From an uncultured bacterium (GTDB taxonomy: Bacteria; Verrucomicrobiota; Kiritimatiellia; RFP12; UBA3636): 35,217 bases of DNA. The stretch lies in the NCBI GenBank assembly GCA_902761575.1, contig CACWKU010000013.1, forward strand, positions 1 to 35,217, given 5' to 3'. How positions within the stretch are numbered: position 1 is the stretch's first letter; every line of letters starts with the position of its first letter. Shown one piece after another: positions 4,636 to 32,012 of the stretch. A program made the position numbers and the translations under genes. Below the pieces are notes generated by a model. It saw nothing but the letters and a program-made list of their open reading frames with translations. It searched no databases and was not told where the DNA came from.

Positions 4636-5736
4636 CTAGACGCGCAGCGGCATGATGACGTAGAGGAACGTCGTGTCGTCCTTGATGAGGCCGGGGGACG
4701 AGGAGTTGTTCAGCTCGATCGTCACCTCGTCGCTCGTCAGGTTGCGCAGCGGCTCCAGGACGTATTCCGGGTTGAAGATCGTCGTGAGCGCCGGGCCGTC
4801 GTATTTCACGGTCACGGTGTCCGTCGCCTCGTCCACGTCCGGCGCGGTGACCTGGACGGTGAGCAGGTTGTTCTCGAAGACGAGCCGCATCGCGTTGGTC
4901 GTCGGCGTCGTGGAGACGTTGATGCGGCGCAGCGTCGCGATGAGCTCCTCGCGGTTCACGCGGATCTTGTTGTCGCAGTCGCTGAAGACCACCTGCTTGT
5001 AGTTGGGGTAGACGCCGTTGAGAAGCTTCGAGCTGAAGAACATCTCGCCGAACTCGAAGATGACCTGCGTGTCCTTGAGCGTCACCTTGAGCGGGCCCTC
5101 GTCGCCGAGCGAGCGGAGCAGCTCCGCGACGGTGCGCGGGGCGAGGACGACGTCCTTGGCGTTCTCCGGCGGGAACTCCGCCTCGGCCCAGCACAGCGCC
5201 AGGCGGCGGCCGTCGGTCGCGACGCAGGTGAGGCGCCCTTCGGCGAACGAGAGCAGCAGGCCCGTGAGCACCGGGCGCGCGGCGTCGTCCGTCGCGGCCG
5301 CGTAGGAGGTTTTGCGGAGCATCTCCTTCACGACGCCCTGGTCGAGCTGGAACGAGAGCCCGTCCTCCGCGCTCGGGATCTTCGGGAACTCGCGCGCGGC
5401 GATGCCCGTGATCTTGGAGCGGTAGGAGCCGCACGTCATGCGGACGGCGTCGGCCTGCTTCGGGTCGGACGCGATCTCGACGATCTGGTCGGAGAGCTCG
5501 CGGACGATCGACGTGAGGCGCTTCACCGGGAGCGTGATCTCGCCCGGCTCGAGCACCTCGGCCTTGCACGTGTAGCGCTTCGTGATCGTGAAGTCCGTCG
5601 TCGTGAACGACAGGTTCTCCCCCTCGGCCGAGACGAGGACGTTGGAGAGCACCGGCAACGTGACGCGCGCCCCGACGACGCCTTGCACGGCGTTGAGGGC
5701 CTCGAGAAGGTTCGACTTGTGGAGCTTGAACTTCAT
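4636..5736 (-). CDS. dnaN: DNA polymerase III subunit beta (sliding clamp)
   Basis: A 366-residue beta clamp, the ring-shaped processivity factor that tethers DNA polymerase III to DNA; 366 residues is also the E. coli length. The N-terminus MKFKLHKSNLLEALNAVQGV and the C-terminal YVIMPLRV are family hallmarks, with three clamp-type subdomains between (e.g. LPVLSNVLVSAEG, PVLTGLLLSF, NGVYPNYKQVV). In most bacteria dnaN follows dnaA. Here it is preceded by 364 bp of non-coding DNA rich in DnaA-box-like sequences, and then by mnmG. The sugar isomerase gene follows 23 nt downstream. Start ATG 5736 is fixed by family alignment; no strong Shine-Dalgarno is visible. Confidence 0.97.
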   Translation of the reverse strand: MKFKLHKSNLLEALNAVQGVVGARVTLPVLSNVLVSAEGENLSFTTTDFTITKRYTCKAEVLEPGEITLPVKRLTSIVRELSDQIVEIASDPKQADAVRMTCGSYRSKITGIAAREFPKIPSAEDGLSFQLDQGVVKEMLRKTSYAAATDDAARPVLTGLLLSFAEGRLTCVATDGRRLALCWAEAEFPPENAKDVVLAPRTVAELLRSLGDEGPLKVTLKDTQVIFEFGEMFFSSKLLNGVYPNYKQVVFSDCDNKIRVNREELIATLRRINVSTTPTTNAMRLVFENNLLTVQVTAPDVDEATDTVTVKYDGPALTTIFNPEYVLEPLRNLTSDEVTIELNNSSSPGLIKDDTTFLYVIMPLRV

Positions 5737-5739
5737 GGC

Positions 5740-5977
5740 TTGTTCACACGGCTCTTCTGGAAGAGTCTCTTTTGTGTTGTTGAAAAGGAGTCGTAGCAGA
5801 GGGGCGGAGGACTGTCGAAGACCTGCCTATCTCGTTGGAAGAATGAGAGTTGTGCTGTCGACAACATGTTTGGATCGGTTCGATGGTCGGTCGGTTCGCG
5901 GCGGGTTGTCGACAGGGGCGGCCGGGATCGACAGGTTGCGAACCGTTTGTTCCGGCTTGTCGACAGGGTTTTCGACA
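5740..5977. other. oriC: Candidate chromosomal replication origin (oriC) with DnaA-box-like cluster
   Basis: In this non-coding gap I see repeated 9-mers close to the GC-rich DnaA-box form TTGTCCACA. TTGTCGACA occurs at 5856-5864 (minus), 5906-5914 (plus) and 5957-5965 (plus). Variants are TTTTCGACA 5969-5977 (plus), GGATCGACA 5925-5933 (plus), TCTTCGACA 5813-5821 (minus) and TTGTTCACA 5740-5748 (plus). A locally AT-richer stretch at 5765-5788 could be an unwinding element. The flanks are dnaN and mnmG (gidA), both classic origin neighbours, and two parS sites lie within 1.6 kb. The TTGTCGACA core is itself palindromic (TGTCGACA), so a dimeric repressor operator is the main alternative. Confidence 0.6.
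5790..5818 (-). promoter_or_regulatory. Probable dnaN promoter
   Basis: Minus strand: -35 TCGACA (5818-5813, 5/6 match to TTGACA), 17-bp spacer, extended -10 TGcTACGAC (hexamer 5795-5790). The leader to the ATG at 5736 would be about 47 nt. The -35 overlaps a DnaA-box-like TCTTCGACA, so DnaA occupancy could repress dnaN (inference). Confidence 0.55.
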
Positions 5978-6018
5978 CCCGCCGCGCCGCCGTCCCGCGT
6001 GGCTCTCAACGGCGCGCT

Positions 6019-6047
6019 ATGATGCCCGAATCCCCACCCGATGTCAA
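6019..6047 (-). promoter_or_regulatory. Possible second promoter upstream of dnaN / in the origin region
   Basis: Minus strand: perfect TTGACA (6047-6042), 17-bp spacer, CATCAT (6024-6019). It would start transcription about 280 nt before dnaN and read through the box cluster. It lacks the TG extension seen at other promoters here, so confidence is lower. No protein is recognised between it and dnaN. Confidence 0.4.
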
Positions 6048-6100
6048 GCACGGAATCGCGCGCGCGAAGTCGGCCGGGCGCACGCGGGGCACTCGTTTCC

Positions 6101-8101
6101 CTACCCTTCGCGTGGCAGGGTCCGCACCCCGCCACGTGCGGCCTGCCTCGCGATCGCCACGGACAGCACGGCGATGTCGGCCGGGGTGACGCCGGGAACG
6201 CGCGCCGCCTGGCCGAGGTTGCGCGGACGGATGCGGGAGAGCTTTTCCCGCGACTCGAACCGCAGGGCGCCGAGTCCGTGGTAGTCGAAGCCGTCGGGGA
6301 TCCGCATCCCCTCCTGTCGCCGTAGCTGCGCCGCGCGGCGCTCCTCCATCTCGATGTAGCCCCGGTAGAGGATGCTCAATTCGATCTCCCGGACGATATC
6401 CGGCGGAAGGTCGGCGCGCGCGCCGGGCAGCCGGAGGTAGCCGCCTCCGGCCTGGCACAGCCGGGCGGAAAGGGTGACGCCGCCTTCGCGTTCCGTGTTA
6501 AGTCGTTGAATTTCCAATCTGATAATGTCAATATCGGCTGCGGTTCGGTCAAGAAAGGCCGGGTAGGCGAGCCCGATGGCGCGGGCGCGGTCGAGCAGAC
6601 GGAACCGGGCGGCGTCCTGCCGCAGCAACAGGCGGTGTTCGGCGCGCGAGGTGAACATCCGATAGGGCTCGTCGGTGCCCTTGGTGACGAGATCGTCGAC
6701 GAGGACGCCCAGATACGCCTCGTCGCGCCCGAAGACGACGGGCTCCTCGTCCCGGAGCGACCGCGCAGCGTTCACGCCGGCGAGGAGCCCCTGCGCGGCC
6801 GCCTCCTCGTAGCCCGTCGTGCCGTTCACCTGCCCGGCCAGGTAGAGCCCGTGCAGCTTCTTGCTCTCGAGCGAGAAGTCCAGGTCCCGTGGGTCGTAGA
6901 AGTCGTATTCGATCGCGTAGGCGTAGGCGGCGAAGCGGGCGCGCTCGAGCCCCGGGATGCTATGGACCATCTCCTCCTGGACGTCGCGCGGCAGGCTCGA
7001 GGAGAGGCCGTTCGGATAGACGAGATTGCGGGTCGGGTCGGCCGACTCGGGCTCAAGGAACACGTGGTGCGCGGTGCGGTCCGCGAACTTCACCACCTTG
7101 TCCTCGAACGACGGGCAGTAGCGCGGTCCCGTCCCGACGATGTCCCCGCCGTAGAGCGCGGAATCGGGGAGATGATCGCGCACGATCCGGCACGTCTCCT
7201 CCGTCGTGTGCGTGACGAAGCACGGCAGCTCCCCGCGCGGGAAAGCGGCTCCTTCCCCCGCCGTTTGTTCCACGTGGAACACTTCGTCTTCGCCCTTCGG
7301 TGCGACGGCCGTGCCGCCGCACCCACGCGTGTCCCAGGCGCGTCCACTGGCCGCGCCGTGGGACGCAGCCACAATTTGGAACAGCCGGTCGGGGTCGTGC
7401 GCGGCCGTCCACGAAAAGAACGGCACGGGATCCCTCTCGCCGTCCTGTCTCGTGCAGCGCTCGTAGTCGACGGACTCCGGGACGAGCCGTGGCGGGGTGC
7501 CGGTCTTGAGACGTTCCACGTGGAACATCAGGTCGCGGAGTTGGTCGGCGAGCGGGTTGGAGGGCGGCTGGCCGTTGCCCCCGCCGGGCGTCCTCTCGTG
7601 CCCGATGTGGATCGTGCCGCGGAGGAACGTCCCGGCCGTGAGGATGACGCGCCGGGCGGACACCTCGCCAGACCGTGCCAGCGCGGCGCCCGCGACGCGA
7701 TCGCCGCGGAGGAGGAGCGCGATGACCTCGTCCTCAAGGACCGTGAGATTCGGCGTCTGCTCTAGGACGGCCTGCATCCGGTCGGAGTAGACGTATTTGT
7801 CGCACTGGGCGCGATTGGCTCGGACGGCGGGACCTCGGCGGGTGTTGAGGACGCGGAACTGGAGCCCGGCAAAGTCGGCGTTGCGGGCCATTTCGCCGCC
7901 GAGGGCGTCGACCTCGAAGATGAGGTGGGACTTGGCGATTCCGCCGATCGAGGGATTGCACGGCATTCCCGCGACCTTGTCGAGCCGAAGCGTCGCAAGG
8001 AGCGTCCGCGCGCCGAGCCGCGCAGCGGCGAGCGCCGCTTCGCACCCGGCGTGCCCGCCGCCCACGACGAGGACGTCGAAATCTGGAGAAACCGCGTTCA
8101 C
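6101..8101 (-). CDS. mnmG: tRNA uridine-5-carboxymethylaminomethyl(34) synthesis enzyme MnmG (GidA)
   Basis: FAD-dependent partner of MnmE that builds the cmnm5 group on the tRNA wobble uridine. It is 666 residues from a GTG at 8101, longer than E. coli MnmG (629). The FAD dinucleotide loop [12 protein letters not shown] is near residues 12-23. Family blocks follow: [42 protein letters not shown] (catalytic Cys region), ending [14 protein letters not shown]. Residues about 238-288 form an insertion relative to E. coli MnmG, and one parS palindrome lies in it. A second parS is encoded in the conserved stretch before RLKTGTPP. The longer frame (to 8320) overlaps folK; GTG 8101 sits 7 nt after the folK stop and begins the normal N-terminus. 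It is third in the operon RAYT-folK-mnmG and flanks the candidate origin. Confidence 0.96.
7266..7281. promoter_or_regulatory. parS: parS centromere site 1 (inside mnmG)
   Basis: Perfect 16-bp palindrome TGTTCCACGTGGAACA, matching the ParB-binding consensus TGTTnCACGTGnAACA at every position. It encodes Val-Phe-His-Val-Glu-Gln in the mnmG frame, within a segment that E. coli MnmG lacks. Confidence 0.88.
7512..7527. promoter_or_regulatory. parS: parS centromere site 2 (inside mnmG)
   Basis: CGTTCCACGTGGAACA: the 14-bp palindromic core is intact and only the first base differs from site 1. It lies 246 bp from site 1 and encodes Met-Phe-His-Val-Glu-Arg just before the conserved RLKTGTPP block of MnmG. 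Confidence 0.82.
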
Positions 8102-8108
8102 AAAAGGA

Positions 8109-8621
8109 CTACCATTGCTCTTCCGAGCGGCGGACGGCAGGACGCGGAGGGAGCGCGGCGAGGAGTTCGGAGACGGTGCCGGGGAGGCCCGGGAGGCGCA
8201 GGATGGGGCGGATTTCGGCGAGTGGGGCGCAGACGAAGCGGCGCGAGGCGATCTGCGGGTGCGGCAGATGCAGGTGGGGTTCGTCGCGGACGGCGTCGCC
8301 GCAGTAGAGCAGGTCGACATCGATGGTGCGCGGGTGGTGGTAGCCGGTGCGGACGCGGCCGAGCTCGTCCTCGACGGCGTGGCAGCGGGCGCTCCAGGCC
8401 TCGAGCGGGAGCGAGACCTCGAACGCGGCGACGGCGTTGAGGTAGTCCTGGCCGGCGAACTCGGGCGGAACGTCGACGGGCTCGGTCTCGTAGACGGCCG
8501 AACGCGCCAGGAGGCGCACGCCGGGCGTCGCGGCGAGGAGGCGCACGGCGCGGCGGAGGTTCTCCGCGCGGTCGCCGAGGTTGCTGCCGAGCGAGACGCC
8601 GGCCTCGAACGTGGTGTTCAT
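8109..8621 (-). CDS. folK: 2-amino-4-hydroxy-6-hydroxymethyldihydropteridine diphosphokinase
   Basis: HPPK, folate pathway: transfers pyrophosphate from ATP to 6-hydroxymethyl-dihydropterin. A 170-residue single-domain protein with SLGSNLGDR near the N-terminus, YETEPVD, the HPPK signature region [15 protein letters not shown], and [19 protein letters not shown]. No fused FolB or FolP domain is present. The open frame extends to 8723, but that part overlaps the upstream transposase gene. ATG 8621 lies 2 nt after that gene's TAG and gives the canonical HPPK start. Overlap-like spacing on both sides (2 nt and 7 nt) indicates translation within the RAYT-folK-mnmG operon. Confidence 0.95.
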
Positions 8622-9819: not shown

Positions 9820-10911
9820 TTATGGACGATGGGAGAGTGTTGCGACAAGGACGCGGGCTACGGACAGAGCAGCCATACAGGCGTTCGCGCGGCAGGGCTT
9901 GGTGTAGCCGAACATCGAGCAGGGCGAGCAGGGGAGTGTTTCGCGGAGGGCAAGGCCGCGATCGGGGGGCGGTCCCCATTTGAGCGGGTCGCTCGGGCCG
10001 AAGAGGACGACGACGCGGGCGCCGACGGCCACGGCGAGATGCGCGATGCCCGAATCGGGGCCGACGAGAAGGCCGGCGCGCACGAGGACTGCAGCTGTCG
10101 TGGCTAGGTCGAGCCGGCCGCAGAGGTCGAGGGCGCCGGATGCGCGGGCGACCGTGGCGGCGACCGCGCAGTCCTCCTTCGCGCCGACAAGGACGCAGGG
10201 GAGCCCGGCGCGGTCGCGCAAGGCGGCGGCGAGCAAGGCGTAGCGGTCTTCGCCCCAGCGCTTGCACGGCACCGACCCGCCCGGATGCAGGGCGATGAAG
10301 CGCTCCGGGAGGCCGTCGGGCGGGGGCGGGAGGCGTTCGGGGGGAATTGAGCCCGCACGCGGCGGGAGGGAGACGGACGGAACGCCGAGCGCGGCGGCGA
10401 GGATGCGCCCGAACTGCGCGTCCTCGGCCCCCTGCAGGTCGTAGGGGACGGTGTGCGTATAGAGGCCGAGACGAGAGGGGGCGACGTTGAAGCCCACGCG
10501 GAGCGGGGCGCGCGTCCGGGCGGCGAGGACGGCCGAGAAGTGGTGGAACTGCTCCGTGTCGAGGACGGCGGCGTAGCGGCAGCGGCGTAGTGCGCGGAGG
10601 GTCGAGAGCGGGGCGGCGTCGGCGCGCAGGACGCGATCCGCGATGCCGGAGAGCTCGAAGACGGGGGCGTTGCGCGATTCGCAGAGGACGTCCACCACCG
10701 AGCCGGGCGCGGCCTCGCGCAGGGCGCGGAGCGCCGGCAGGAGCAGGATGGCATCGCCGATGCCGCCGGGGCGCACGACAAGGACGCGGCCGCCGGGGAA
10801 GTCGCGCAACGTGCGCGTCTCCGGGGTGCCTTGGGAGCGGGAAAAGGCTGTGCAGAGGGCAGGACCGAGGGCGGAGTCGAGCGCCTTGAGCAGGCCGGTA
10901 CGGGCGGACAT
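9820..10911 (-). CDS. Glycosyltransferase family 9 (heptosyltransferase-like)
   Basis: A 363-residue GT9 enzyme of the ADP-heptose:LPS heptosyltransferase type, which adds sugars to the inner core of lipopolysaccharide on the cytoplasmic side. The N-terminal Rossmann half has VVRPGGIGDAILLLPALRAL (45-64). The C-terminal nucleotide-sugar half has ALHPGGSVPCKRWGEDRY and the family signature GPDSGIAHLAVAVGARVVVLFGPSDPLKWGPP, of which I cite the ends only. A Cys-rich tail (PCSPC, YTKPC) is typical of many GT9 members. It starts 7 nt after the M28 gene stop, so both share one transcript. Acceptor and donor sugars cannot be read from the sequence. Confidence 0.92.
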   Translation of the reverse strand: MSARTGLLKALDSALGPALCTAFSRSQGTPETRTLRDFPGGRVLVVRPGGIGDAILLLPALRALREAAPGSVVDVLCESRNAPVFELSGIADRVLRADAAPLSTLRALRRCRYAAVLDTEQFHHFSAVLAARTRAPLRVGFNVAPSRLGLYTHTVPYDLQGAEDAQFGRILAAALGVPSVSLPPRAGSIPPERLPPPPDGLPERFIALHPGGSVPCKRWGEDRYALLAAALRDRAGLPCVLVGAKEDCAVAATVARASGALDLCGRLDLATTAAVLVRAGLLVGPDSGIAHLAVAVGARVVVLFGPSDPLKWGPPPDRGLALRETLPCSPCSMFGYTKPCRANACMAALSVARVLVATLSHRP

Positions 10912-10918
10912 GGCGAAT

Positions 10919-11905
10919 CTATTCCCGTTCGGGTGGAGGACGGATGCCGGATGGAACTTCCGTACCCTCCTCGATACGATTCAACAGGGCGAGAGCAAAG
11001 GTAGCCGTTCGAAGAAGAGAACGGGGCGATATCTTATCGATCGAATCCTCGGCCGTGTGCCAATAGTCGTGGCGACCAGGCGCCGAACCGTATTCGAAGT
11101 CGATGAAGTCGATGGCGGCGAATTCGTTCGGTGGCATCAGAAAGGGAACGTGATCGTCGATAATCGCGTTGGAGGCAAGGGAAACAGGCGGACAGCCGCG
11201 GGTTTCGGAGGCGGTCTTCATGGCCGCGTTGGCAAGCCAGGGCGTGACGTTTCGTGGAATTTCAAGAGACAGACGCTCGTCTCCGACCATGTCGAATACA
11301 AGCGCCGCGACAAGGGGCGGCCTCGCCCCCTTTCGACGAGTTGCGGCAAACTGCGCGGCCATGCGACGGGAACCGTGCAGTCCATCCGTGTCTGCATAGG
11401 AGCCTACCGCCTCCTCGCCATCGAGAAACGCGATGCGAATCGTGTCCCGGAATTCCGGGCGACGTTCTGCAAAATGTTCCGCGATGCCGAGCAGGAGACC
11501 GACCGAGGAACCGCCGTCATTCGCGCCGGCGAAACCCGGAATGCCGGATTTGGTGTCGTAGTGCCCGGCAAGAAGGACCGTCTGGCCGGACGTGCCCGGG
11601 AAATCGATATAAACGTTGCAGAACGTCTTGCGGCCGTGGGCGGTGTTCTCCGTCCAGCAGTCGGCCTCGGGTTTCAGCCCCATTCTCTTGAGCTCCTGGG
11701 CAATCCAGCGCGAGGCGCGCGCCGCGCCCGGCGTACCGGCGTCACGCGGAGCAATGCGAACGAATTCGGAGGCGTATGCATACATCCGGACGCCCGTATC
11801 GCGCGGCAACAAGAACCAGTCGGCGGCGGTCCGGCGGCGACCGCACCCCGCGCAAAGCAGGGCGGCGGCGGCCGTGACGGCGATGGCGGCGTGGCGGAGT
11901 TCCAT
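10919..11905 (-). CDS. M28-family metallopeptidase, glutaminyl-cyclase-like lipoprotein
   Basis: A 328-residue exported zinc enzyme. The signal sequence leads to Cys21 (LLCAGC), a lipobox-like site. M28 metal-ligand positions are all present: His115 (AGHYDTK), Asp130 (GANDGG), Glu164/165 (LDGEE), Asp205 (FDMVGD) and His283 (HTAED). The block DGEEAVGSYADTDGLHGSRR and the IDDHVPFL stretch closely recall animal-type glutaminyl-peptide cyclotransferase, which forms N-terminal pyroglutamate, rather than a plain aminopeptidase. So cyclotransferase is a real alternative to peptidase. I start at ATG 11905 instead of the longer frame at 11959: it begins the signal peptide and sits 7 nt after a strong -10 element. 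Confidence 0.88.
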   Translation of the reverse strand: MELRHAAIAVTAAAALLCAGCGRRRTAADWFLLPRDTGVRMYAYASEFVRIAPRDAGTPGAARASRWIAQELKRMGLKPEADCWTENTAHGRKTFCNVYIDFPGTSGQTVLLAGHYDTKSGIPGFAGANDGGSSVGLLLGIAEHFAERRPEFRDTIRIAFLDGEEAVGSYADTDGLHGSRRMAAQFAATRRKGARPPLVAALVFDMVGDERLSLEIPRNVTPWLANAAMKTASETRGCPPVSLASNAIIDDHVPFLMPPNEFAAIDFIDFEYGSAPGRHDYWHTAEDSIDKISPRSLLRTATFALALLNRIEEGTEVPSGIRPPPERE

Positions 11906-16321: not shown

Positions 16322-19300
16322 ATGAAACAGACCCAGTCCCTCCTCCGCCTTCTCCCCGCCGCCGTCCTGGCGCTCGGCCTGGCCCTTCCGGCCCGGGCCG
16401 CGCTGCAGACGATGGACCCCGCCACGTTCACCATGGTCAACACGCTCAACATCACGATGCAGCAGGGGACGCAGAAGATCATCCGCATCAGCGACCCCAA
16501 CCTGGGCCCGGAGGAGAACATCGACTGCTGGATCCAAGGAAACGCCGTCACCGTGTCGCCGGCCGTCCAGACGCTCGCCACGTCCGCGAATCCCGGCTGG
16601 ACCATCTCGGCGGTCTCCGTCACGCCGAACGGCGCGCCCGAGGTCGTCCGCATCTTCCAGCAGAGCGACGACACGGCCAGCAACTACGTCACGATCAACA
16701 TCACCGTCACGCCCGGCGAGAACGCCTTCCGATGGGAGGTGGACGGATCCACGATCTCCTCCGGATCCATCTCCATCGACGAAGGCGCCTTCGCGGACGT
16801 GACCGCGCGCCTCTTCATGCCGGTCTCCGCCACGACGGTCTTCGACATCACGAGCAGCTCCAACCTGATCGCCGTCACGCCCGCCGAGGCGACCGTTCTC
16901 GCGGGCGGCGAGGGCCTTTCGTTCCGCGTCACAGCGCTGGACGGCCCGGCGAGCGGCTCCGTCACCGTTTCGAGCCGGAACGGCGGAGTTGTCGGCACGC
17001 TCTTCGTCCGCATCAACAACGTCGCGCCCGTCATCACGACGCCCAATCCGGACGATCCGCCGGAATTCACCCGCACGGCCAACAAACCGAGTGTCTACAC
17101 GGGCGTAGCCAAGGACGACGGCTCGGTCGACAATCCGCAGCTCGTCTACGAGTGGGACTTCGGCGATGGCACGGCCGTCGTGCAAGGCCGGCAGGCCACG
17201 CACGCGTACGCGAGCGAGGGCGAATATACCGGCACGCTCACCGTAACGGACAAGGACGGCGCGTCCGCCGTCTCCACCTTTACCGTCGTCGTCGAACCCG
17301 GCGTCATCGTCAAGCTCGACACGCCCGGAGAGCTCGAGAAGACGCTCGCCGGCGTCGCCCGCGCGAGCGGGTTCACCTTCGAGACGCCCGAGGGGACGAC
17401 CTGGATCCCGGCCGGCAACCCGTTCGGGCCGAAGGAGCCCTTCGTGACCGACGTCATCCTCCCCGACCGCGTCTATCCGTTCGGCTGGCTCGTTCCCGAC
17501 GAGATCACCGGCGGAAACACCGCGCGCCTCAAGACGGGCTGGAACGCGATCACCCAGCTCTCCGGCAACGCCCCCGACACCGGCATCGCGACGGTCTACT
17601 ACGTCGGCTCCCTTGCCTGGAAGGGCAACGACATCATCGTCGGCGTCGACGGCGAAGGTCACGACATCGTCGTCAACCCCGACACCTTCGGCGACATCGA
17701 CCAGGACGGCCTTCCCGACATCTGGGAAACCCGCTACTTCGGCCAGGTGGACATGGACACGATCCTCGAGGAAGGCTTCGCCGCCGCGTCCGACAAACAG
17801 CCTTCCGACGAAGACGAACCCATCCAGCACCCGCGCTACACCGCGGACGGCAATCCCGACCACGACCATCTGCCGCCCTACGCCTCCGTCGTCGTCACCA
17901 ACAAGGTGGACGGCGGCCTCATCCAGGTCTTCGACTATCCGCTCGACTGCTCCATCGGCGTCCGCTCCTACGCGACCGTCGCGTGGGAGGACATCCCGCC
18001 GGACTGGCTCTCGTCCGTCGCCGCCGCCTACGACACGCAGCTCACCCAGAACGGCTACCCGCGCCGCCAGAGCTTCGTGCCGTTCTCCAACTTCATGGAG
18101 TTCCGCGGCGTGCCCGAATGCCGCGTCGATCCCGACACGGGCGATCTCTCCGTCGACGAAGGCGGGCGCTACCTCTGGCGCTACTACACCGATCCGAACC
18201 CGACGAAGTACACCCGCGGCCCCTCCCCCGTCACCGACCCGACCAGCGCCGACTCCAACAACAACGGCCGCGACGACGGCTGGGAGTACTACTTCTGGCT
18301 CACGCTCAAGTACGACGTCCATCCCGAGCACTGGCGCGCCTACGACCCCACGTTCTCCCTCTACGCCCCCTCGAGCGGCAACTACACGCCCAACGCCAAT
18401 CCCGGCCTGCCGCTCCTCAAGACCGAGGTCGGCAACTTCGAGGCCGTCACCGAGGCCAAGCCGGACGATCCGTGGGACGTCTTCGCCTACTACGGCTCCG
18501 TCACCAACGCGCCGATCGTCAACACCAACATGTCGGTCCGCGTGAACTATCCGAACGGGTTCCAGCTCTTCAACCTGCTCGGCGCGATGGATTCCCGCGG
18601 CAACTCGATCCTCTACTACGTCGGTACCGACCTGATGCCCCATCCGACGGACGGCTGGATCAACCTCCTCACCGGCGACTACTACATCCCCGGCGTCGCG
18701 GACTTCCTGCTGAAGGAGGCGGACTATCCGGACTTCTTCCCGAAGGGAGCCCCCGACGAGGGCGGGCTCGACTGGAGCGACCCGGCCCCGATCCTGCAGA
18801 TCGCCGCCGTGCACCAGGACGGCCTCTTCTCGCGCGAGTACCTGATGTCCCTCTTCGACCCCGCGAGCACCGCGAGCGGCGTCCGCCAGCCCGAGAACGC
18901 CGACGAACTCCCCTACGCCTGGTACCGCGACGACACGGTCACCAACAACTACAGCACGCTGTCCGTCAACGCCAGCGCCCAGCGCCCGATGCCCTACGTC
19001 CGCTGGCAGCCGGACTTCGACATCGACAACGACGGCCTTTCCAACCTCGAGGAATACTACCTCGGCACCGACCCGCTCAACTGGGACACCGACGGCGACG
19101 GCATGCCCGACGGCTGGGAGGTCATGATGGGCCTCCTGCCGCTCGACGCCCGCAACGGCGCCGCGCTCCAGTCCGGCCCGGACGACAACCCCGACGACGA
19201 CTGGATGGCCTCCGGGCCCTTCGGCCACCGCCACTGGCTCGTCCAGAAATACCGCTGGGACCACGGCGCCGAGGGCGGCATCCAGTTCCGCCTCGAATAC

Positions 19301-22300
19301 GAAGGGCGCAACGCCTGCCTCTTCGCCGACCAGTGGAACGGCGGGGCCAACGGATGCTTCGTCCCCGGCGAGGCCAGCACGAGCGGCGCGAAGTACTCCA
19401 ACCGCGAGGAGTTCCTCTTCGCCCGGTACCTCATCGCGATGGGGCTCACGAGCGCCGTCTACCCCGGGATGTGGAACGACTGCACGACGGACCCGCTGAA
19501 CGACGACACGAACGACAACGGCCTTCCCGACGGATGGGAGGCCTACGTCTGCTGCGATCCGATCTGGCTCCCGAACGCCGACACGATCGATCCCGAAGCG
19601 CCCGATTCGGACGAGGCGATGTGGTCGCTGGCCTACCTGCCCGTCTACACCTACCGCTACGGCGTCTTGCCCCCGTCCTTCCAGGACAAGGACGGCATCA
19701 GCCTCTGGGCCGAATTCGACAACCAGGCCATCGCCGACAAGCGCGACGCCGACGTCGAGTTCGAGATGCCCTCCGGCTCCATGTGCGTCCGCCACGCCTT
19801 CCCGCGCCTCAACCCGGACTGGACCAACAAGCCCCTGCCGACCGACCCGAGCTGCGACGACACCGACGGCGACGGCCTTCCCGACGGTCTGGAGTACAAG
19901 GAGGACTACGACTACAACGGCGACGAGAACCCGCTGGCCAACTTCAATCCGACGACGGCCGACACCGACGGCGACTGGCTGCCCGACGGCTGGGAGCTCG
20001 TCATGGGCAACTACGACACCAACCACGCCGACGCCGTCTTCGGCACCTTCGGCGATCCCGACGGCGACGGCCTCGCGAACTACCAGGAGTACCTGACCGG
20101 CTCCCAGTACGGCTGGCGCTACGACTACTGGTACGCCCCGGACAACACCAGCTACTGGCGCCCGCTCGGCGACACGCCGGACGACGACTCCGTCGGATTC
20201 GTCTACTACCGTCCCGCGGACTTCTTCCGCCCAGAGGCCGACTTCGCGACGATGTTCATCGCCTCGAACCTGCTCGAAAAACTGGAAGCCCGCTACGGAA
20301 TCCCCGACGACGTGGGCGATTCCAAGTGGGGCGGCCGGTGGTCCAACGTCGGCGTCCAGCAGCGCTGCGCCAAGGTCATGGAGGCCAACGGCGATTTGAT
20401 CATGATGGCCTACTCCTTCAACGTCGACTTCCCGAAGGAGGACTTCGCGCCCCTCCACATCTCGGCCAACGAGGCGCAGGTGTTCGTCTACATGATGCAG
20501 CAAATGCCCAATTGGGGCCATTACAGCCAGGGCGGCGGCGGCTCCTTCAACCGCGGCCGCGGCACGTTCGGCTGGGACGCCGCCGGCAATTCCGGCACAG
20601 GAAAGGAGCTCACCGCGGTGTGGACCTTCATGCCGAACAACTACGTCGGACCCGCCGGCTTCCCGGGCACCAGCCCGCGCATGGCCGACACCGATTCCGA
20701 CGGCATGCCCGACTACTGGGAGCTCTACCACGGCCTCAACCCGACCTACGGCGGCTGCCGCCTCACGTCGATGATCGCCGACGGCCTCAACGAGCGCATG
20801 CAGGGCGCCAACGCCCACAACGTCGACGCCGACCGCGCCGACGGCGGTCCGACCGTCCTGTCCTTCTACGTCGGCGAGGACGGCTACGTCGGCGACGGCT
20901 CGCAGAACAACTGGCGCATGGGCTGGGATCCCACCTACGTCCGCAACATGCACGAGACGATGGTCGGCCTCCGCCCCGTCTCCCTCATCGAGACCACCAG
21001 CTTCACGCACCTGCTCTGCCCGCCGCAGATGGAGTGGGGCCACTTCGACCCGGTGCTCCGCCCGTGGCTTTCCGGCGACCGAGTCGCCGACCCGGACCAG
21101 GACGGGCTTTCCAACGAGGAGGAGGCGACGAGCTACCTGGCCAACGACATCCTCCACCACACCGACCCGTCGCCCTACTGGATCACCGACACGAGCGACC
21201 CGAACTCGTACGTGAACCTCTACTACCGCACGGCCGGCCTCGCGCCCTACTGGTGGTGGGACCAGCCGCTCATCGGCGAATCCGGCGACCCGCCCACGTA
21301 CCTGTTCGACTTCGAGGTAAACGAGGGCTTCGACACCGACAACAACAACATCGCCGACCGCGACGAGCTCACGGACACGGACGGCCATCGCGCCACCGAC
21401 CCGCTCGACCTCGACAGCCCGATCGCCCGCAAGGCGATGTACTTCGACGGCAACGCCGCGTGCCGTACGCGCCAGCCGTTCTTCCACGACAAGTACTCGC
21501 TCGCGTCCTTCACGGTCGAGTTCTGGTTCCGCGCGCAGGAGCCCGTGAGCGACCGCACGCAGACCCTGATCCACCGCCCGGTCCTCATGCCCGTGAACGA
21601 GGGCTCCGGCGCCTACGCGTGGACGACCCGCAACAACTTCTGCGTCGAGCTCGACCCGGAGGGCCACCTCGTCGCCCGCATCGACAACGACGCCATCGAG
21701 CAGGCCTCCCAGTCCTCCGTCTCGATCCGCGGCGGACGCGTCGTGCCCAACATCTGGAACCACGTCGCCGTGTCGATGGACTCCGTCGGCAACACCTTCA
21801 CGATGTACCTCAACGGCGAGGTCGCCGCGGCGGCGTCCACCTCCCTCAAACCCTGCACCGGCATCCTGCTCGGCCTCGACCACATCGACCACGGCGAGGA
21901 CAACGGCCCCTACACCTACGACGTCCTCAACTACGACTACAGCCCCGCCCCGATCGTCGTCGGCGCCTACGACACGAACGGCTGGGGCGTCGTCTCCGGC
22001 TACAACATCAACGGCACGCGCGACGCCTTCCAGCAGCCGATGTTCGACGAGTCGAAGTTCTACAAGGGCTGGATCGACGAGATCCGCGTCTGGGACCGCT
22101 GCCGCTCCCAGAGCGAGATCAACAACAGCATGAAGAAGCGCTTCACCAAGGCGGACATCGCGCCGATCAACCAGGCGCGCTTCGCCTGGGACAACGTCTA
22201 CCTGCCCGGCGCCACGAGCCTCAGCGACTTCCCGCAGAAGCTCCTCTACCACTACTCCTTCGACAACCTGCCCGACGTGGCCCGCGCGCCCGCCGAGCGC

Positions 22301-25300
22301 GACGACACGTTCCTCTCGCCCCACGACACCGACAAGTACCCGCAGGGCTGGGACCTCGTCGCCGACGGCACCGGTCGCTCCGGCGGATTCACCGGCGTCG
22401 AGGAGGCCGCCAATGCCGGCGTCCTCGGAACGCGCCACTTCGCCGCCCCGTGGTGGTACACGGCGAACTACCGCTCCACCGTCTACGGCCCGGACTACAG
22501 CTACGTGCCCTACATCGAGAACACCGTGGCCCACATGCCCCAGCGCCCGCCGCAGGACATGAAGGAGCTCGTCCCGCTCTACAACGCCTACTACGAGCTC
22601 TACGGCTACCGGTTCCGCGCCACCGCGGACTGGATGCAGGACGTGTACGAGTACCTCTACCCGATGGTCCAGAGCGCCTACCCGATCGAGCCCAATCCGG
22701 TCAGCACCGAGGCCCCCGCCGTCGAGCTGGAGCAGGTCCGCAACTCGATGAACCCCTACGGCGAGACCTACCACACCAGCATCTCCGTCGGGTACGAGCG
22801 CAACACCGCCAACTTCGGCGGCCATCTCGACCGCTGGGGCCAGTACGAGTACGTCCCGATCCTCTCCGACATGCTCCCGCTGCTCGACGCGGTGGCCGAC
22901 ATCGACGTCCCGATGTGGGACGACGAGCGGCCCGGCTGGGACCTCTCCGCCATCGACTCCGACGGCGACGGCCTGCCCGACTGGTGGGAGATCGCCCACG
23001 GCCTCGATCCGAACGACGCCACCGGCGTGAACGGCGCCTACGGCGACTCCGACGGCGACGGCCTCGACAACTACGCCGAATACCTCGCCGGCACCGATCC
23101 GCACGCCGCCGACACCGACGGCGACGGCTACTCCGACTACTTCTCCCGCGCGGACGGCACCAGCCTCACCTACGGCGAGCTCTACGACGACGGCGACGGC
23201 ATGGACAACGCCTGGGAGATCGCCCATGGCCTCAGCCCCGACCGCTTCGACGCGGACGCCGACCCGGACAACGACGGCTGGTCCAACTGGTCCGAGTACA
23301 TGGCCCAGACGGATCCGACCGATCCCGGCGACTACCCGCACCCCAAGTTCAACGTCACCTATTACTACGACGGCGAGCAGGCCGAGCTGACCGGCCTCGG
23401 CGTCTACCCCTACGGCGAGAAGACCACGGGCGACACCATGGGCGGATCCTTCGACGGCCGCTACACCATGGGCGTCGACCACGGCGAGCAGACGTACCTG
23501 GGCATCGACGGCGTCGTGACCCTCGGCGAGCACAGCGACATCGGCCTGCAGGGCACCTTCGGCACCACGAAGCTCCAGCACGGGCTCGTCGAGTCGGCCA
23601 CGATCACCGTCCAGGTCCCGACCGCCGAGGGCTACGAGGCCCGCCAGTTCACGATGGCCATCGCCAACGAGGCCCTCGGCCAGTTCACCGCCGACAACGA
23701 CGGATGGCTCTTCATGGAGCTGGAGTCCGGGCGCCTCTACATGAACGGCGTCTACTACGGATGCCGCGCCATGGTGAACTACCGCGTCAAGAGCTACTCC
23801 TTCCCCGAGAGCTTCTCCAACCTCATCCGCAACCCGTTCGGCGCGCACACCCACATGGTCGAGGGCCCCAACCGCTTCCTCGGCTGGATGGACGTCAACG
23901 GAAACCAGGAGTTCGACTTCGGCGAGCCCATGGGCATCTCCATCTACAACCCGACGATCGCCGGGTGGGACTCCGTCCAGACCGAGATCATGCTCTCGGA
24001 CGGGCTCTGGGACTTCCCGCGCCTCTCCTGGGTCGATGCGCCCGCCAGCACCAACGTCCCGAGCCCGAACGAGTACATCGTCACGCTCAGGTGGGTCGGC
24101 AGCTCCTCCGAGTCCGAGGAGTCCGAGACCACCACCACCACGGTCGGCGGCGGCGGATACGGCGACATCGACGGCGACGGCCTCGACTCCTTCCAGGAAT
24201 CCCGCGCCGGGACCGACGTCGACAAGATGGACACCGCGGGCGACGGCCGCATGGACTACGACAGCCAGTCCGCCGCGGGCACCCTCACGTGGGGCGAACT
24301 CTACGACGACGGCGACATGATGCCGGCCCAGTGGGAAATCGCCAACGGGACCGACCCCGACAACTACGACGCCGACGACGACCCCGACGACGACGGGTGG
24401 ACCAACTACGAGGAATACCTCGCCGGAACCGACCCGAACGACGCCGCGGCCTTCCCGACACCCCAGATCGACGTCACGTTCCTCTACTCCGGCAGCTTCT
24501 CCGCCGCGACGAACACGAGCATGAACCCGACGATCCTGACCTACTCGCAGCGCCGCAAGGGCACCTACCTCGACGGCAACGCCTCGCGCGGCATCTACAT
24601 GGGCGGCGAGCCCGACGGCCGCTACACCATGCACGGCACGGTCGTCGGCGAGGAGGGCATCCTCGGCGTCGGCGGCTCCCACGCCGTCGAGGGCATCATG
24701 CTCGCCGCCGTCCCGCTCGACTACGGGCACGTCCGCGAGGCGACGATCGAGGTCTGGGACGAGGACGCCCGGGAGAACGCCGAGGAGTACACGTCGAGCG
24801 AGTTCAACGAGGAGGTCCTCCAGTTCGTGGACGAGCGCGACACCATGCTCTACCTCGAGCGCGAGACCGGCCTCCTGCTCTGCTCCGCCAACCTCGTCGG
24901 CAAGCGCTTCTCGATCGACTACACGATCGAGGGCTACACCTACCCGCTCGAGATCAACGGCTTCGTCCGCGGAAACGGCACGCACGCGGTCGGCGGCTAC
25001 AACCGGTTCTTCGGGTTCCTCGACGGAAACGGCAACGGCTCGTGGGACGAAGGGGAGCCCGCCGGCCTCTCCCTCTACAACGCGACGCTCGTCTCCCCGC
25101 ACTCGACGAAGACGACGATTCCGCTCTCGGACGGCCTCTTCGGATTCCCGCGCTTCGCCTGGCCCGCTTCCACAAACGCCAATGTGACGAGCTACCGCGT
25201 CACCATCTGGAACGGAAAGGGCGAGACGGCCCTGGAGGACGCGAACGGCAATCCCGTTGAGAGCATCGTCATCGAGGCTCCTCGCACGTTCATCCACGAG

Positions 25301-28300
25301 GGCGACTACATCGAGCACGGCATCCGCGGCATCAAGTTCGGCGAGTCTACGACGGACACGCTCACCTGGGAAGTGGCCTCGATGAACGGCGTCGATCCGA
25401 AACCAGAAATTCTCGCGGAGGGCGAATTCGTATCGTCCTTCGTCCCGAACACAGGATCCCGCCGACAGATGAAGGTCGTCTCGCCGGTCGCCGGCAACAC
25501 GGTCTACGGATCGCTCGTCGAGTTCAAGTGGCAGATGGACTGGCGCACAGAAGGCGTGTTCTTCACCGTGAAGAACTCCTCCGGCAGCGCGGTCGCGGGA
25601 CTGAACAACCTCTACGTGCCATTCCCCGTCCTCCACGGCAGGACCACGGACGACGACTACTACTACACCTACATCCCGCAGCTGGAGAACGGGCGCTCGA
25701 TCGCGAACCTGCCGACCGGCACCTACACCTACACGATCACGGAGAACGTCCGCTCCTCGGCCGTGGAGGCGCAGGAGATTTCCGGTTCGTTCCGGATCGA
25801 CAACGCGGACACGTCCCGCACGAAGGCGGCGATCAACGGCCACGTCCACTACTACGGCCGCCTCGGAACGGACCTCGTTCCCGGCAAGGTCGTCGTCCAG
25901 GCCTACGAGATTCCGAACTCGGCCGAGACGAGCCTCTCCGTGGGTGGCAATCCCATCGCCCGCACGACGGTCGCCGCCGACGGCTCCTTCTCGCTGCACG
26001 GCCTCGGAGCCGGTTCCTACGCGGTGATCGGCTGGGTCGATTCGAACGGCGACGGCAGGTTCACGTCCTCCGACACCCAGGGCTTCGGCTTCCTCGGCAA
26101 CTCCGCCTGCCCGAACCAGATTCCGGGCTGGTGCCCGCCGCTCGTGATTACCAACAACACGAAGATGGTCGCAATCGACCTCGACGACGTCCACGTCGTC
26201 CTCCGCGACCGGGACGTGAACGGCGACGGCAAGCCCGAAACCTACACTGGAACGGCCGCCGATTGGAAGAACGCCGACCTCCGCACGTTCCCGAACCCGA
26301 CCGCGGCTCAGCTGGAGACGCTGGGCTGGGTGAACGCCTACCTCTTCTCCACGACACGCGTCGTCCGCGTCATCACGTCGACGTCGTCAAGCCGCCAGAA
26401 GAACTTCGAATACGTCACCAAGCGCTACGTCGTCCCGGCCCCGCGCCTCTTCTTCCACGAGTGGGACCAGATCCGGCTCGGCAAGAAGAACAACGATCCG
26501 ACCGAGTACGGCCTCAACCTCGGCGTCACGAACGTGATCGGCGTCACCTGGAACGTCGCCGCGTCCGACGGCTACCGCTCCGAGAAGATCGCGCAGGGCG
26601 ACTTCGTCGTGAATGCCGGCCTGCCGCCCGGATCCGAGCGCGATCCGCGCCGCACGATGCGCGCCATCTGGCCGACGCAGCTCACGAAGGTCTACGGATC
26701 CGTGGTCGAGTTCGAATGGGAGATGGACTGGCGCAACGCCGGCGTCCGCTTCGTCCTCGAGAACATCGACGGCGACGAGCCCGTCGAGGTGTTCAACGGC
26801 GTCATCCCGATGCCCGTCCGCCACGGCAAGACCACGACGCAGAACTACTACTACACGTGCAAGCCGCAGCTCGAGGACGGCCTCCGCTTCCTCGACCTGC
26901 CCAGCGGCAAGTACCGCTACACGATCACCGAGCGTCCGCGCACGAGCATGTTCGCCGCCCAGAGCGTCTCCGGCACCTTCCAGAAGGTGAACGAGGACAC
27001 CGCCCGCAGCGTCCACTCGATCGCCGGCCGCGTCGAGTACTACGGCAAGGTCATGGAGTCCGAGACGGTCGCCGCCGGCATCGCGTCGGGCGACGGCGCG
27101 TCGCGCGTCCTCACCGCCCTCGTGGACACCAACCTCGTGCATCGCGGCGCCATGGGCGTGTACGTCATGAAGGGCGGCGAGCCCGTCGAGACGCTCAACG
27201 ATTCGAAGGGCGACGGCGTCCTCCACTCCGAGAGCGCCCCGAACGCCTACTCCGGCTCGATCGCCTACAAGTCCGACGCGGATCCGTCGAAGGCCGAGAT
27301 CACGGTGAACTTCCTCGTCCCGCCCGGCGCGGACACGACCCTCGACCTCGTCGTGAAGAAGTTCCCCGCCCCGCTCGTCATCCAGGCCTTCAAGGTTCCG
27401 GAGAACGCCGAGTCCGCGCTCTCCTTCTCCGGCACCCCCGTCGCCCAGACGACCCAGGAGGAGAAGGGAGCCTACAAGGTCGACGGCCTCGGCCAGGGCG
27501 CCTACGCGGTCCGCGCGTGGATCGACTCCAACGGCAACCGGATCCCGGACAACTGGGAGACGATCGGCTTCGCGACGTACTCCAGCACGGTGAGCCCCAA
27601 CCTCGACCGCGCCGCCGCCCCGATCCGCGTCACCAACGACGTAATCAACACCGTCATCGTCCTGCACGACCGCGACACGGACAACGACCTGCTGCCCGAT
27701 TCGTGGGAGTTCTGGAAGTTCGGAGATCTCCAGACCTCCGGCTACGACCAGACCCAGCCCGACCTCTACATCTGGCAGGAGTACGCGGACGGTCTCCTCG
27801 ACTCCGACCCGCGCACGCCGGACACGGACCTCGACGGCCTCACGGACGCGATGGAAATCCTCGTCACCAAGACCGACACGCACAAGCGCGACACGGACGG
27901 CGACGGCATCGGAGACCTGGAGGAGTTCCTCTCCGGCTCCGACCCGCTCGACGCGAACGACGCGGTTCCCTACACGGTTCCGGCCCTCGCGTTCGACGCG
28001 GACGGCCAGCCCTTCGTGGAGATCCCGTATCCCTCGATCCAGCCCGGCGTCGTCCTGACCTACGAGCTGCAGCGCAAGGAGAACCTCGCCGACGCGGCCT
28101 GGGAGACGGTCTGCGTGCACGAGGTCGTGAACGACGGCTCCGGCGACCTCGTCGGCGGCTCGGACGGCGTCAACGCCCACATGACCGCGCCTGGCGTCGC
28201 CCTCCTCAAGCCGGCCGAAAAGGCGGAAGACGTCGACTTCAACTCCGGATTCTTCCGGATCAAGGTCTACGCCGACTACGGCCGGATGGTCGACAACGGC

Positions 28301-28489
28301 GACGGCACCTGGTCCTACTGGACCTGGGTCCGTCACGGCACCGACCGCTGGGACTACGAGGAGGCCGCTCGCGGCAAGGGCACGCTCGTCCGCGATGCCG
28401 ACGGAAACTGGAGCTTCGTCTCCGACGCCTCCGGCCGGAAGGGAGTCCTAGTTCGCAACGAGGACGGTACCTGGACCTTCCAGAATTAG
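16322..28489 (+). CDS. Giant secreted multidomain protein (PKD, TSP3-like, LamG, duplicated modules)
   Basis: A 4055-residue exported protein with signal peptide residues 1-26 (LALPARA). The start is supported by an AAGGAG Shine-Dalgarno at 16309-16314. A PKD domain (about 255-326) contains YEWDFGDG. TSP3/EF-hand-like DxDxDGxxD loops, often followed by WE and GTDP, are near 458, 640, 899-940, 1061, 1179-1262, 1456, 1590, 1672, 2209-2340, 2615-2714 and 3785-3880. A LamG/concanavalin-type domain is at about 1700-1930 (KAMYFDGNAA to GWIDEIRVWDR). Modules A and B (from 2285 and 2658) are tandem duplicates, as are modules C and C' (from 2985 and 3372). C and C' contain carboxypeptidase-regulatory-like folds (GLGAGSYAVIGWVDSNGDG). 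A 68-residue tail with three DGxW motifs ends the protein. No catalytic domain is recognised. Probably a calcium-stabilised surface, adhesion or matrix protein. Confidence 0.9.
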   Translation: MKQTQSLLRLLPAAVLALGLALPARAALQTMDPATFTMVNTLNITMQQGTQKIIRISDPNLGPEENIDCWIQGNAVTVSPAVQTLATSANPGWTISAVSVTPNGAPEVVRIFQQSDDTASNYVTINITVTPGENAFRWEVDGSTISSGSISIDEGAFADVTARLFMPVSATTVFDITSSSNLIAVTPAEATVLAGGEGLSFRVTALDGPASGSVTVSSRNGGVVGTLFVRINNVAPVITTPNPDDPPEFTRTANKPSVYTGVAKDDGSVDNPQLVYEWDFGDGTAVVQGRQATHAYASEGEYTGTLTVTDKDGASAVSTFTVVVEPGVIVKLDTPGELEKTLAGVARASGFTFETPEGTTWIPAGNPFGPKEPFVTDVILPDRVYPFGWLVPDEITGGNTARLKTGWNAITQLSGNAPDTGIATVYYVGSLAWKGNDIIVGVDGEGHDIVVNPDTFGDIDQDGLPDIWETRYFGQVDMDTILEEGFAAASDKQPSDEDEPIQHPRYTADGNPDHDHLPPYASVVVTNKVDGGLIQVFDYPLDCSIGVRSYATVAWEDIPPDWLSSVAAAYDTQLTQNGYPRRQSFVPFSNFMEFRGVPECRVDPDTGDLSVDEGGRYLWRYYTDPNPTKYTRGPSPVTDPTSADSNNNGRDDGWEYYFWLTLKYDVHPEHWRAYDPTFSLYAPSSGNYTPNANPGLPLLKTEVGNFEAVTEAKPDDPWDVFAYYGSVTNAPIVNTNMSVRVNYPNGFQLFNLLGAMDSRGNSILYYVGTDLMPHPTDGWINLLTGDYYIPGVADFLLKEADYPDFFPKGAPDEGGLDWSDPAPILQIAAVHQDGLFSREYLMSLFDPASTASGVRQPENADELPYAWYRDDTVTNNYSTLSVNASAQRPMPYVRWQPDFDIDNDGLSNLEEYYLGTDPLNWDTDGDGMPDGWEVMMGLLPLDARNGAALQSGPDDNPDDDWMASGPFGHRHWLVQKYRWDHGAEGGIQFRLEYEGRNACLFADQWNGGANGCFVPGEASTSGAKYSNREEFLFARYLIAMGLTSAVYPGMWNDCTTDPLNDDTNDNGLPDGWEAYVCCDPIWLPNADTIDPEAPDSDEAMWSLAYLPVYTYRYGVLPPSFQDKDGISLWAEFDNQAIADKRDADVEFEMPSGSMCVRHAFPRLNPDWTNKPLPTDPSCDDTDGDGLPDGLEYKEDYDYNGDENPLANFNPTTADTDGDWLPDGWELVMGNYDTNHADAVFGTFGDPDGDGLANYQEYLTGSQYGWRYDYWYAPDNTSYWRPLGDTPDDDSVGFVYYRPADFFRPEADFATMFIASNLLEKLEARYGIPDDVGDSKWGGRWSNVGVQQRCAKVMEANGDLIMMAYSFNVDFPKEDFAPLHISANEAQVFVYMMQQMPNWGHYSQGGGGSFNRGRGTFGWDAAGNSGTGKELTAVWTFMPNNYVGPAGFPGTSPRMADTDSDGMPDYWELYHGLNPTYGGCRLTSMIADGLNERMQGANAHNVDADRADGGPTVLSFYVGEDGYVGDGSQNNWRMGWDPTYVRNMHETMVGLRPVSLIETTSFTHLLCPPQMEWGHFDPVLRPWLSGDRVADPDQDGLSNEEEATSYLANDILHHTDPSPYWITDTSDPNSYVNLYYRTAGLAPYWWWDQPLIGESGDPPTYLFDFEVNEGFDTDNNNIADRDELTDTDGHRATDPLDLDSPIARKAMYFDGNAACRTRQPFFHDKYSLASFTVEFWFRAQEPVSDRTQTLIHRPVLMPVNEGSGAYAWTTRNNFCVELDPEGHLVARIDNDAIEQASQSSVSIRGGRVVPNIWNHVAVSMDSVGNTFTMYLNGEVAAAASTSLKPCTGILLGLDHIDHGEDNGPYTYDVLNYDYSPAPIVVGAYDTNGWGVVSGYNINGTRDAFQQPMFDESKFYKGWIDEIRVWDRCRSQSEINNSMKKRFTKADIAPINQARFAWDNVYLPGATSLSDFPQKLLYHYSFDNLPDVARAPAERDDTFLSPHDTDKYPQGWDLVADGTGRSGGFTGVEEAANAGVLGTRHFAAPWWYTANYRSTVYGPDYSYVPYIENTVAHMPQRPPQDMKELVPLYNAYYELYGYRFRATADWMQDVYEYLYPMVQSAYPIEPNPVSTEAPAVELEQVRNSMNPYGETYHTSISVGYERNTANFGGHLDRWGQYEYVPILSDMLPLLDAVADIDVPMWDDERPGWDLSAIDSDGDGLPDWWEIAHGLDPNDATGVNGAYGDSDGDGLDNYAEYLAGTDPHAADTDGDGYSDYFSRADGTSLTYGELYDDGDGMDNAWEIAHGLSPDRFDADADPDNDGWSNWSEYMAQTDPTDPGDYPHPKFNVTYYYDGEQAELTGLGVYPYGEKTTGDTMGGSFDGRYTMGVDHGEQTYLGIDGVVTLGEHSDIGLQGTFGTTKLQHGLVESATITVQVPTAEGYEARQFTMAIANEALGQFTADNDGWLFMELESGRLYMNGVYYGCRAMVNYRVKSYSFPESFSNLIRNPFGAHTHMVEGPNRFLGWMDVNGNQEFDFGEPMGISIYNPTIAGWDSVQTEIMLSDGLWDFPRLSWVDAPASTNVPSPNEYIVTLRWVGSSSESEESETTTTTVGGGGYGDIDGDGLDSFQESRAGTDVDKMDTAGDGRMDYDSQSAAGTLTWGELYDDGDMMPAQWEIANGTDPDNYDADDDPDDDGWTNYEEYLAGTDPNDAAAFPTPQIDVTFLYSGSFSAATNTSMNPTILTYSQRRKGTYLDGNASRGIYMGGEPDGRYTMHGTVVGEEGILGVGGSHAVEGIMLAAVPLDYGHVREATIEVWDEDARENAEEYTSSEFNEEVLQFVDERDTMLYLERETGLLLCSANLVGKRFSIDYTIEGYTYPLEINGFVRGNGTHAVGGYNRFFGFLDGNGNGSWDEGEPAGLSLYNATLVSPHSTKTTIPLSDGLFGFPRFAWPASTNANVTSYRVTIWNGKGETALEDANGNPVESIVIEAPRTFIHEGDYIEHGIRGIKFGESTTDTLTWEVASMNGVDPKPEILAEGEFVSSFVPNTGSRRQMKVVSPVAGNTVYGSLVEFKWQMDWRTEGVFFTVKNSSGSAVAGLNNLYVPFPVLHGRTTDDDYYYTYIPQLENGRSIANLPTGTYTYTITENVRSSAVEAQEISGSFRIDNADTSRTKAAINGHVHYYGRLGTDLVPGKVVVQAYEIPNSAETSLSVGGNPIARTTVAADGSFSLHGLGAGSYAVIGWVDSNGDGRFTSSDTQGFGFLGNSACPNQIPGWCPPLVITNNTKMVAIDLDDVHVVLRDRDVNGDGKPETYTGTAADWKNADLRTFPNPTAAQLETLGWVNAYLFSTTRVVRVITSTSSSRQKNFEYVTKRYVVPAPRLFFHEWDQIRLGKKNNDPTEYGLNLGVTNVIGVTWNVAASDGYRSEKIAQGDFVVNAGLPPGSERDPRRTMRAIWPTQLTKVYGSVVEFEWEMDWRNAGVRFVLENIDGDEPVEVFNGVIPMPVRHGKTTTQNYYYTCKPQLEDGLRFLDLPSGKYRYTITERPRTSMFAAQSVSGTFQKVNEDTARSVHSIAGRVEYYGKVMESETVAAGIASGDGASRVLTALVDTNLVHRGAMGVYVMKGGEPVETLNDSKGDGVLHSESAPNAYSGSIAYKSDADPSKAEITVNFLVPPGADTTLDLVVKKFPAPLVIQAFKVPENAESALSFSGTPVAQTTQEEKGAYKVDGLGQGAYAVRAWIDSNGNRIPDNWETIGFATYSSTVSPNLDRAAAPIRVTNDVINTVIVLHDRDTDNDLLPDSWEFWKFGDLQTSGYDQTQPDLYIWQEYADGLLDSDPRTPDTDLDGLTDAMEILVTKTDTHKRDTDGDGIGDLEEFLSGSDPLDANDAVPYTVPALAFDADGQPFVEIPYPSIQPGVVLTYELQRKENLADAAWETVCVHEVVNDGSGDLVGGSDGVNAHMTAPGVALLKPAEKAEDVDFNSGFFRIKVYADYGRMVDNGDGTWSYWTWVRHGTDRWDYEEAARGKGTLVRDADGNWSFVSDASGRKGVLVRNEDGTWTFQN
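23174..25215 (+). repeat. Tandem protein-level repeat pair A/B in the giant protein
   Basis: Unit A begins near 23174 and unit B near 24293, about 373 codons apart. Shared landmarks are GELYDDGD, (N/D)DGW(S/T)N-EY, DGRYTM, NRFLGWMDVNGN versus NRFFGFLDGNGN, and LSDGL-(F/W)-FPR. A Ser/Glu/Thr/Gly-rich linker (about codons 2595-2615) separates them. The copies are diverged, so the duplication is old. Confidence 0.82.
25273..27690 (+). repeat. Tandem protein-level repeat pair C/C' in the giant protein
   Basis: Unit C begins near 25273 and C' near 26435, about 387 codons apart. Matching blocks: APRTFIHE / APRLFFHE; VYGSLVEFKWQMDWR / VYGSVVEFEWEMDWR; YYYTYIPQLENG / YYYTCKPQLEDG; YTYTITE / YRYTITE; AYAVRAWIDSNG / SYAVIGWVDSNG. 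C' carries an insertion of about 85 residues (around nt 27050-27360) that C lacks. Confidence 0.85.
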
Positions 28490-29922: not shown

Positions 29923-31484
<1,562 letters not shown>

Positions 31485-31765: not shown

Positions 31766-31782
31766 GCCGCCGCTTCGCGGCG

Positions 31783-31876: not shown

Positions 31877-31882
31877 GAACAT

Positions 31883-31959: not shown

Positions 31960-31963
31960 GCAT

Positions 31964-31990: not shown

Positions 31991-32012
31991 AAGCGGTTCC
32001 ACGCAGATTTTC

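Follow-up and report, generated by a model that had tools for sequence, protein, structure and literature searches.

Is the 364-bp gap between dnaN and mnmG (gidA) the replication origin (oriC) of this chromosome, and why do its putative DnaA boxes carry G at position 6 (G6)? To our knowledge, DnaA boxes are regarded as nearly universal, and C6 is part of their most constant half. The sequence analysed (the window, 35,217 nucleotides) is contig C13 of the draft MAG G000, which comprises 3.4 Mb in 304 contigs; the closest relatives with a name are MAGs labelled 'uncultured Verrucomicrobia bacterium'. We are fairly confident in the answer proposed here, namely that positions 5737-6100 are the chromosomal origin and that its boxes carry G6 because the DnaA of this lineage no longer demands C there.

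The box array and its conservation

The features of the locus are as follows.

4636-5736, minus strand: dnaN, bordering the gap
5737-6100 (364 bp): dnaN-mnmG intergenic gap, proposed oriC from its box cluster, conservation in relatives and the skew minima of relatives
5737-5850: AT-richer part of the gap, candidate unwinding region
5740-5748, plus strand: box TTGTTCACA, immediately upstream of the dnaN start
5778-5786, minus strand: box-like TTTTCAACA, relaxed pattern
5787-5799, minus strand: DnaA-trio-like stretch CTGCTACGACTCC, which aligns with CTACTACTATTACTAC (G015) and CTATTACTGCTACTC (G017)
5812-5820, minus strand: weak box-like CTTCGACAG, read from the sequence, adjoining the trio-like stretch
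5856-5864, minus strand: predicted DnaA box C, exact TTGTCGACA
5906-5914, plus strand: predicted DnaA box B, exact TTGTCGACA
5957-5965, plus strand: predicted DnaA box A, exact TTGTCGACA
5969-5977, plus strand: box-like TTTTCGACA, relaxed pattern
6019-6047, minus strand: likely dnaN promoter (TTGACA-17-CATCAT), judged from the sequence, with the box array within its leader
6101-8320, minus strand: mnmG/gidA, bordering the gap; actual start probably close to residue ~77, by the conserved core
7266-7281: exact parS TGTTCCACGTGGAACA, within mnmG
7512-7527: parS with one mismatch, within mnmG
29924-35167, plus strand: rRNA operon (16S-tRNA-Ala-tRNA-Ile-23S-5S), with transcription leading away from the gap

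The preliminary description counted at least seven box-like 9-mers in the gap, three of them identical. The three copies of TTGTCGACA were confirmed, at 5856(-), 5906(+) and 5957(+), with spacings of 50 and 51 bp; 0.29 copies are expected in the window, and none of 100 window shuffles gave three. With the relaxed pattern [TC]T[AGT]T[CT]NACA, six sites were found clustered in this non-coding DNA and none in the remaining 34.8 kb of the window, while shuffles of the gap gave a mean of 0.05 and none of 2000 reached six; a seventh is obtained only by counting the weak site at 5812-5820. It was also correctly predicted that a standard search would miss these boxes, as the E. coli consensus TTWTNCACA has no match in the gap. 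TTGTCGACA departs from this consensus at positions 3 and 6, and it has exactly 2 mismatches to TTATCCACA, which is within the limit of at most 2 mismatches used to define a DnaA box (quoted in PMC5043019). The AT-richer non-coding stretch that had been reported was found as well, on the dnaN-proximal side beside the boxes, where the GC content is 0.51 (5737-5850) compared with 0.72 at 5971-6100 and 0.67 in the whole window, a modest contrast.

Equal frequency of TTGTCGACA in other non-coding DNA had been named as evidence against an origin, and this is not what we observed. There are 14 matches at 10 places in G000, three of them in the gap. Among the other seven places, one adjoins a TTGTTCACA some 170 bp upstream of dnaB, and six are within apparent coding ORFs, their coding status being judged from the ORFs only.

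When the gap was compared with related genomes, as the preliminary description had proposed, the three-box array proved to be conserved upstream of dnaN in the same family. It is present in G009, G002, G010, G007 and G011, with three boxes about 50 bp apart in most of them. Boxes A/B/C, in the order of the dnaN direction, read as follows.

G000 and G009: TTGTCGACA / TTGTCGACA / TTGTCGACA
G010: TTGTCGACA / TTGTCCACA / TTATCGACA
G002: TTGTCAACA / TTGTCCACA / TTATCAACA
G007: TTGTCTACA / TTGTCCACA / -

The canonical TTGTCCACA occupies site B in G002, G007 and G010 with the spacing unchanged, and the sites are orthologous to recognisable boxes, TTGTCCACA and TTATCAACA. Where G000 has TTGTCGACA, close relatives can have an ordinary TTGTCCACA, so the motif is not new but a DnaA box altered at position 6. 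The palindromic core, previously put forward as a feature of the box, does not survive this comparison and is a by-product, because the boxes at the same sites in close relatives (TTGTCCACA or TTATCAACA) are not palindromic. The box at the dnaN start (5740-5748) is likewise represented by TTGTTCACA or TTGTTTACA at the equivalent place in G009, G002, G010 and G007. In relatives from the same order that have dnaA beside dnaN, boxes spaced by about 51 bp are found in the dnaA-dnaN gap, e.g. at 16/66/118 in G025 and 12/63/116 in G035. In several genomes boxes are found in front of dnaB too, and in several in front of dnaA, which suggests that DnaA may tune replication genes as well.

Three genomes of the same genus (G001, G003 and G004) have no recognisable boxes in front of dnaN, and in G001 and G003 there are none before dnaA and none were found before dnaB. 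Their origin was not located upstream of dnaN, upstream of dnaA or dnaB where these were read, or on the parS contig C84, which is without a box cluster. A TTGTCGACA/TTGTCCACA pair on G001 C168 was rejected as an origin candidate as it overlaps a dispersed repeat. This repeat, GGGATTGTCCACAAATCTCAATTGTTCACAATTGTCCACAAA, has tandem words similar to canonical DnaA boxes and is scattered through the genus, with 15-40 copies in some genomes; it was seen on C38, C122 and C123 of G000, many times in G001-G003, and once within the mnmG insert of G008. A search for closely spaced box pairs was swamped by the same repeat family. The idea that dispersed TTGTCCACA repeats force the origin boxes to G6 was dropped, since box B still has C6 in G002, G007 and G010, all of which carry the repeats.

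parS sites, GC skew and candidate unwinding region

The two parS sites in mnmG are the only sites in G000 within one mismatch of the 16-bp TGTTNCACGTGNAACA, and they lie 1.2-1.4 kb from the gap. In most relatives searched, parS is again in or beside mnmG, dnaA or dnaN. The parS inserts in the mnmG coding region encode FHVE and G009 has three of them at 69-bp steps (L130:6442-6757), as if the centromere were expanding inside an essential gene by whole codons. A five-copy intergenic parS array, with repeats of about 130-365 bp, was observed outside mnmG in G003:C84 (L214:2722-3520).

In three relatives the cumulative GC skew has its minimum at the gap that precedes dnaN, or no more than about 110 bp from it: at 11,357 in the same-family G013:C67 (gap 10,204-11,247; dnaN starts at 11,248), at 94,993 in the same-order G025:C85 (dnaN at 95,071) and at 93,755 in the same-order G031:C5 (dnaN at 93,861). 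For G013, genes switch strand where the skew flips, and the intergenic skew flips only weakly, from -0.06 to +0.03. In G019 the minimum lies about 6 kb away, and in G044 there is no clear one. The local profile of the 35-kb window is lowest at the rRNA operon, with no minimum at 5.9 kb. We consider it uninformative, as the MAG is in 304 contigs and the profile is dominated by the rRNA operon and a 4055-codon open frame (16322-28489, plus strand), which has long overlapping frames on the opposite strand.

Clear DnaA-trios were found in the same-family genomes G015 (CTACTACTATTACTACTT) and G017, with 5-6 consecutive trios, where a basal unwinding system calls for at least 3 beside a box; those of G000 and its genus are interrupted and degenerate.

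From these elements we infer that DnaA binding, unwinding and initiation occur at the gap. DnaA would bind the three boxes spaced by 50-51 bp together with the weaker flanking boxes, oligomerise toward dnaN and, at about 5740-5850, melt the trio-like DNA of lower GC content, where DnaB would be loaded. ParB/ParA would then use the nearby parS sites in mnmG to segregate the newly copied origin.

DnaA recognition helix and box position 6

The experimentally defined 9-bp high-affinity boxes all carry C6 (TTATCCACA, TGATCCACA, TCATTCACA and TTGTCCACA; Table 1 of PMC4285127), and the base-contacting residues of E. coli DnaA include R399, P423, D433, H434, T435 and H439 (PMC7561715, PMC5043019). Because dnaA was not found in the G000 assembly, where a weak match on C160 was not credible, the residues of its DnaA were deduced from G006 and G008, two genomes identical or nearly identical to G000 in DnaN and origin. 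When aligned to E. coli 1J1V, domain IV of G006 and G008 has K-T-H-A-T in place of R432-D433-H434-T435-T436. The order mostly has [KR][TNSKQ]H[ATGS]T, with Thr, Ser, Asn, Lys or Gln and not Asp at the equivalent of D433; members of the class mostly have [RK]NHAT, and several families of the phylum have RDHGT. G013:C26:34696-34899 encodes a second, short DnaA-domain-IV protein (158-aa open frame). In G010 (C19 33621-34424) the DnaA domain IV is divergent (KTHATVYHG) and, in contrast to the other family members, has a partial DnaN-like frame beside it; this may be contamination, a mobile element or a second dnaA-dnaN locus.

The suggestion that this lineage uses G at position 6 holds for the species, but the letter is not fixed: at orthologous boxes of the same family it is G, A, C or T, and in the order as a whole A predominates, G being found in GC-rich members. 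Boxes were tallied from 400 bp before to 450 bp after dnaA. C6 is present in 8 of 13 boxes with Asp433, in 21 of 61 with Asn433 and in 3 of 84 with Thr, Ser or Lys433, and 57 of these last 84 have A6. The Fisher P value for Asp versus Thr/Ser/Lys433 is 1e-6, which is descriptive since boxes and genomes are non-independent. Across the phylum, the change in DnaA residues correlates with the loss of C6; an exception is G071, which combines RDHGT with A6.

On this evidence, the recognition of C6 has probably been relaxed in this lineage, with G6 apparently the form that a lineage-wide loss of C6 takes where the GC content is high. A DnaA having K-T-H-A-T rather than R-D-H-T-T in its helix-turn-helix would no longer demand C6, G6 would then be allowed, and a high GC content would favour it over the A6 common in relatives. 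The box has apparently drifted at one normally fixed letter alongside a changed DnaA. We lean somewhat towards the wider reading that the DnaA of the order evolved a new specificity, in which loss of the Asp equivalent to D433 (with Thr435 changed to Ala or Gly) made C6 dispensable, and the CACA half became RACA throughout the origins and DnaA-controlled promoters of the order.

Alternative readings and known systems

Alternatively, DnaA might control the dnaN promoter through the array as an operator, and use a similar operator in front of dnaB, while replication starts elsewhere, e.g. near the displaced dnaA. Its boxes do lie between dnaN and a conserved promoter (TTGACA-17-CATCAT has similar counterparts in relatives, including those without boxes), boxes are also found before dnaB and before dnaA in several genomes, and dnaA is not beside dnaN in this family. 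However, the dnaA promoters of the family have only about two or three boxes, the skew minima of G013, G025 and G031 fall at the dnaN-side gap, and parS clusters with mnmG/dnaN and not with dnaA; we regard the operator as unlikely. Much less likely still is that a dimeric transcription factor with no relation to DnaA uses TTGTCGACA as its operator. Such a factor would suit the palindromic GTCGAC core and the presence of the motif upstream of two replication genes, but the aligned sites of relatives are the non-palindromic DnaA boxes TTGTCCACA and TTATCAACA with the spacing kept. The last alternative is that the sites cluster in the non-coding gap by chance. GC-rich DNA is not short of GTCGAC-type words (the window has 21 copies of TGTCGA outside the gap), but no shuffle matched the observed counts and the conservation of the array between species already excludes a chance cluster, so that its probability is negligible.

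The direction of the rRNA operon away from the gap, the spacing of about 51 bp in the order and the fact that the only parS pair is nearby count further for oriC. The absence of an own skew minimum at 5.9 kb, the strand-switch confound in G013, the result for G044, the boxless G001, G003 and G004, the degenerate trios and the absent dnaA of G000 count against it. On balance, the gap is very probably oriC, as the preliminary description proposed: the conserved boxes, the adjacent parS, the skew minima of relatives and the restriction of the motif, within non-coding DNA, to this gap and the dnaB upstream region support this reading well.

Literature searches returned no account of a TTGTCGACA-type box at an origin from Verrucomicrobia or Kiritimatiellae. 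If our reading is true, a box and a recognition helix changing together provide a natural experiment in the drift of an essential protein-DNA code, and the failure of standard box searches to find the origins of these uncultured genomes is accounted for. In practice, one would look for TTDTNNACA clusters upstream of dnaN, beside a parS-bearing mnmG.

By its sequence, the gap belongs to a known kind of element whose specificity has changed throughout the lineage, and DnaA is predicted to bind it. Like the bacterial dnaA-dnaN-type oriC, it has several boxes in non-coding DNA by dnaN, an AT-richer side, nearby parS and, in three relatives, a skew minimum at the equivalent gap; it differs in that dnaA has left the locus (in the family, only dnaN is adjacent), a parS-bearing mnmG flanks it (in the species) and the three main boxes are without C6. 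The high-GC box TTGTCCACA of Mycobacterium and Streptomyces (PMC4285127) shares G3 and is identical except at position 6, which is G here and A, C or T in relatives, whereas every box in Table 1 of that paper has C6. The weak box, the GC-rich spacer and the CTN repeats are where the basal unwinding system of DnaA-box and DnaA-trios (PMC8287927) would have them, and this system is clear in G015 and G017 but interrupted and short in the genus of G000. The box shift in Epsilonproteobacteria (PMC5043019) is also a lineage-specific change accompanied by residue variation in helix 5 of DnaA domain IV; there, it concerns position 5 (T) and residues 435/438/439, while here it concerns position 6 and residues 433/435.
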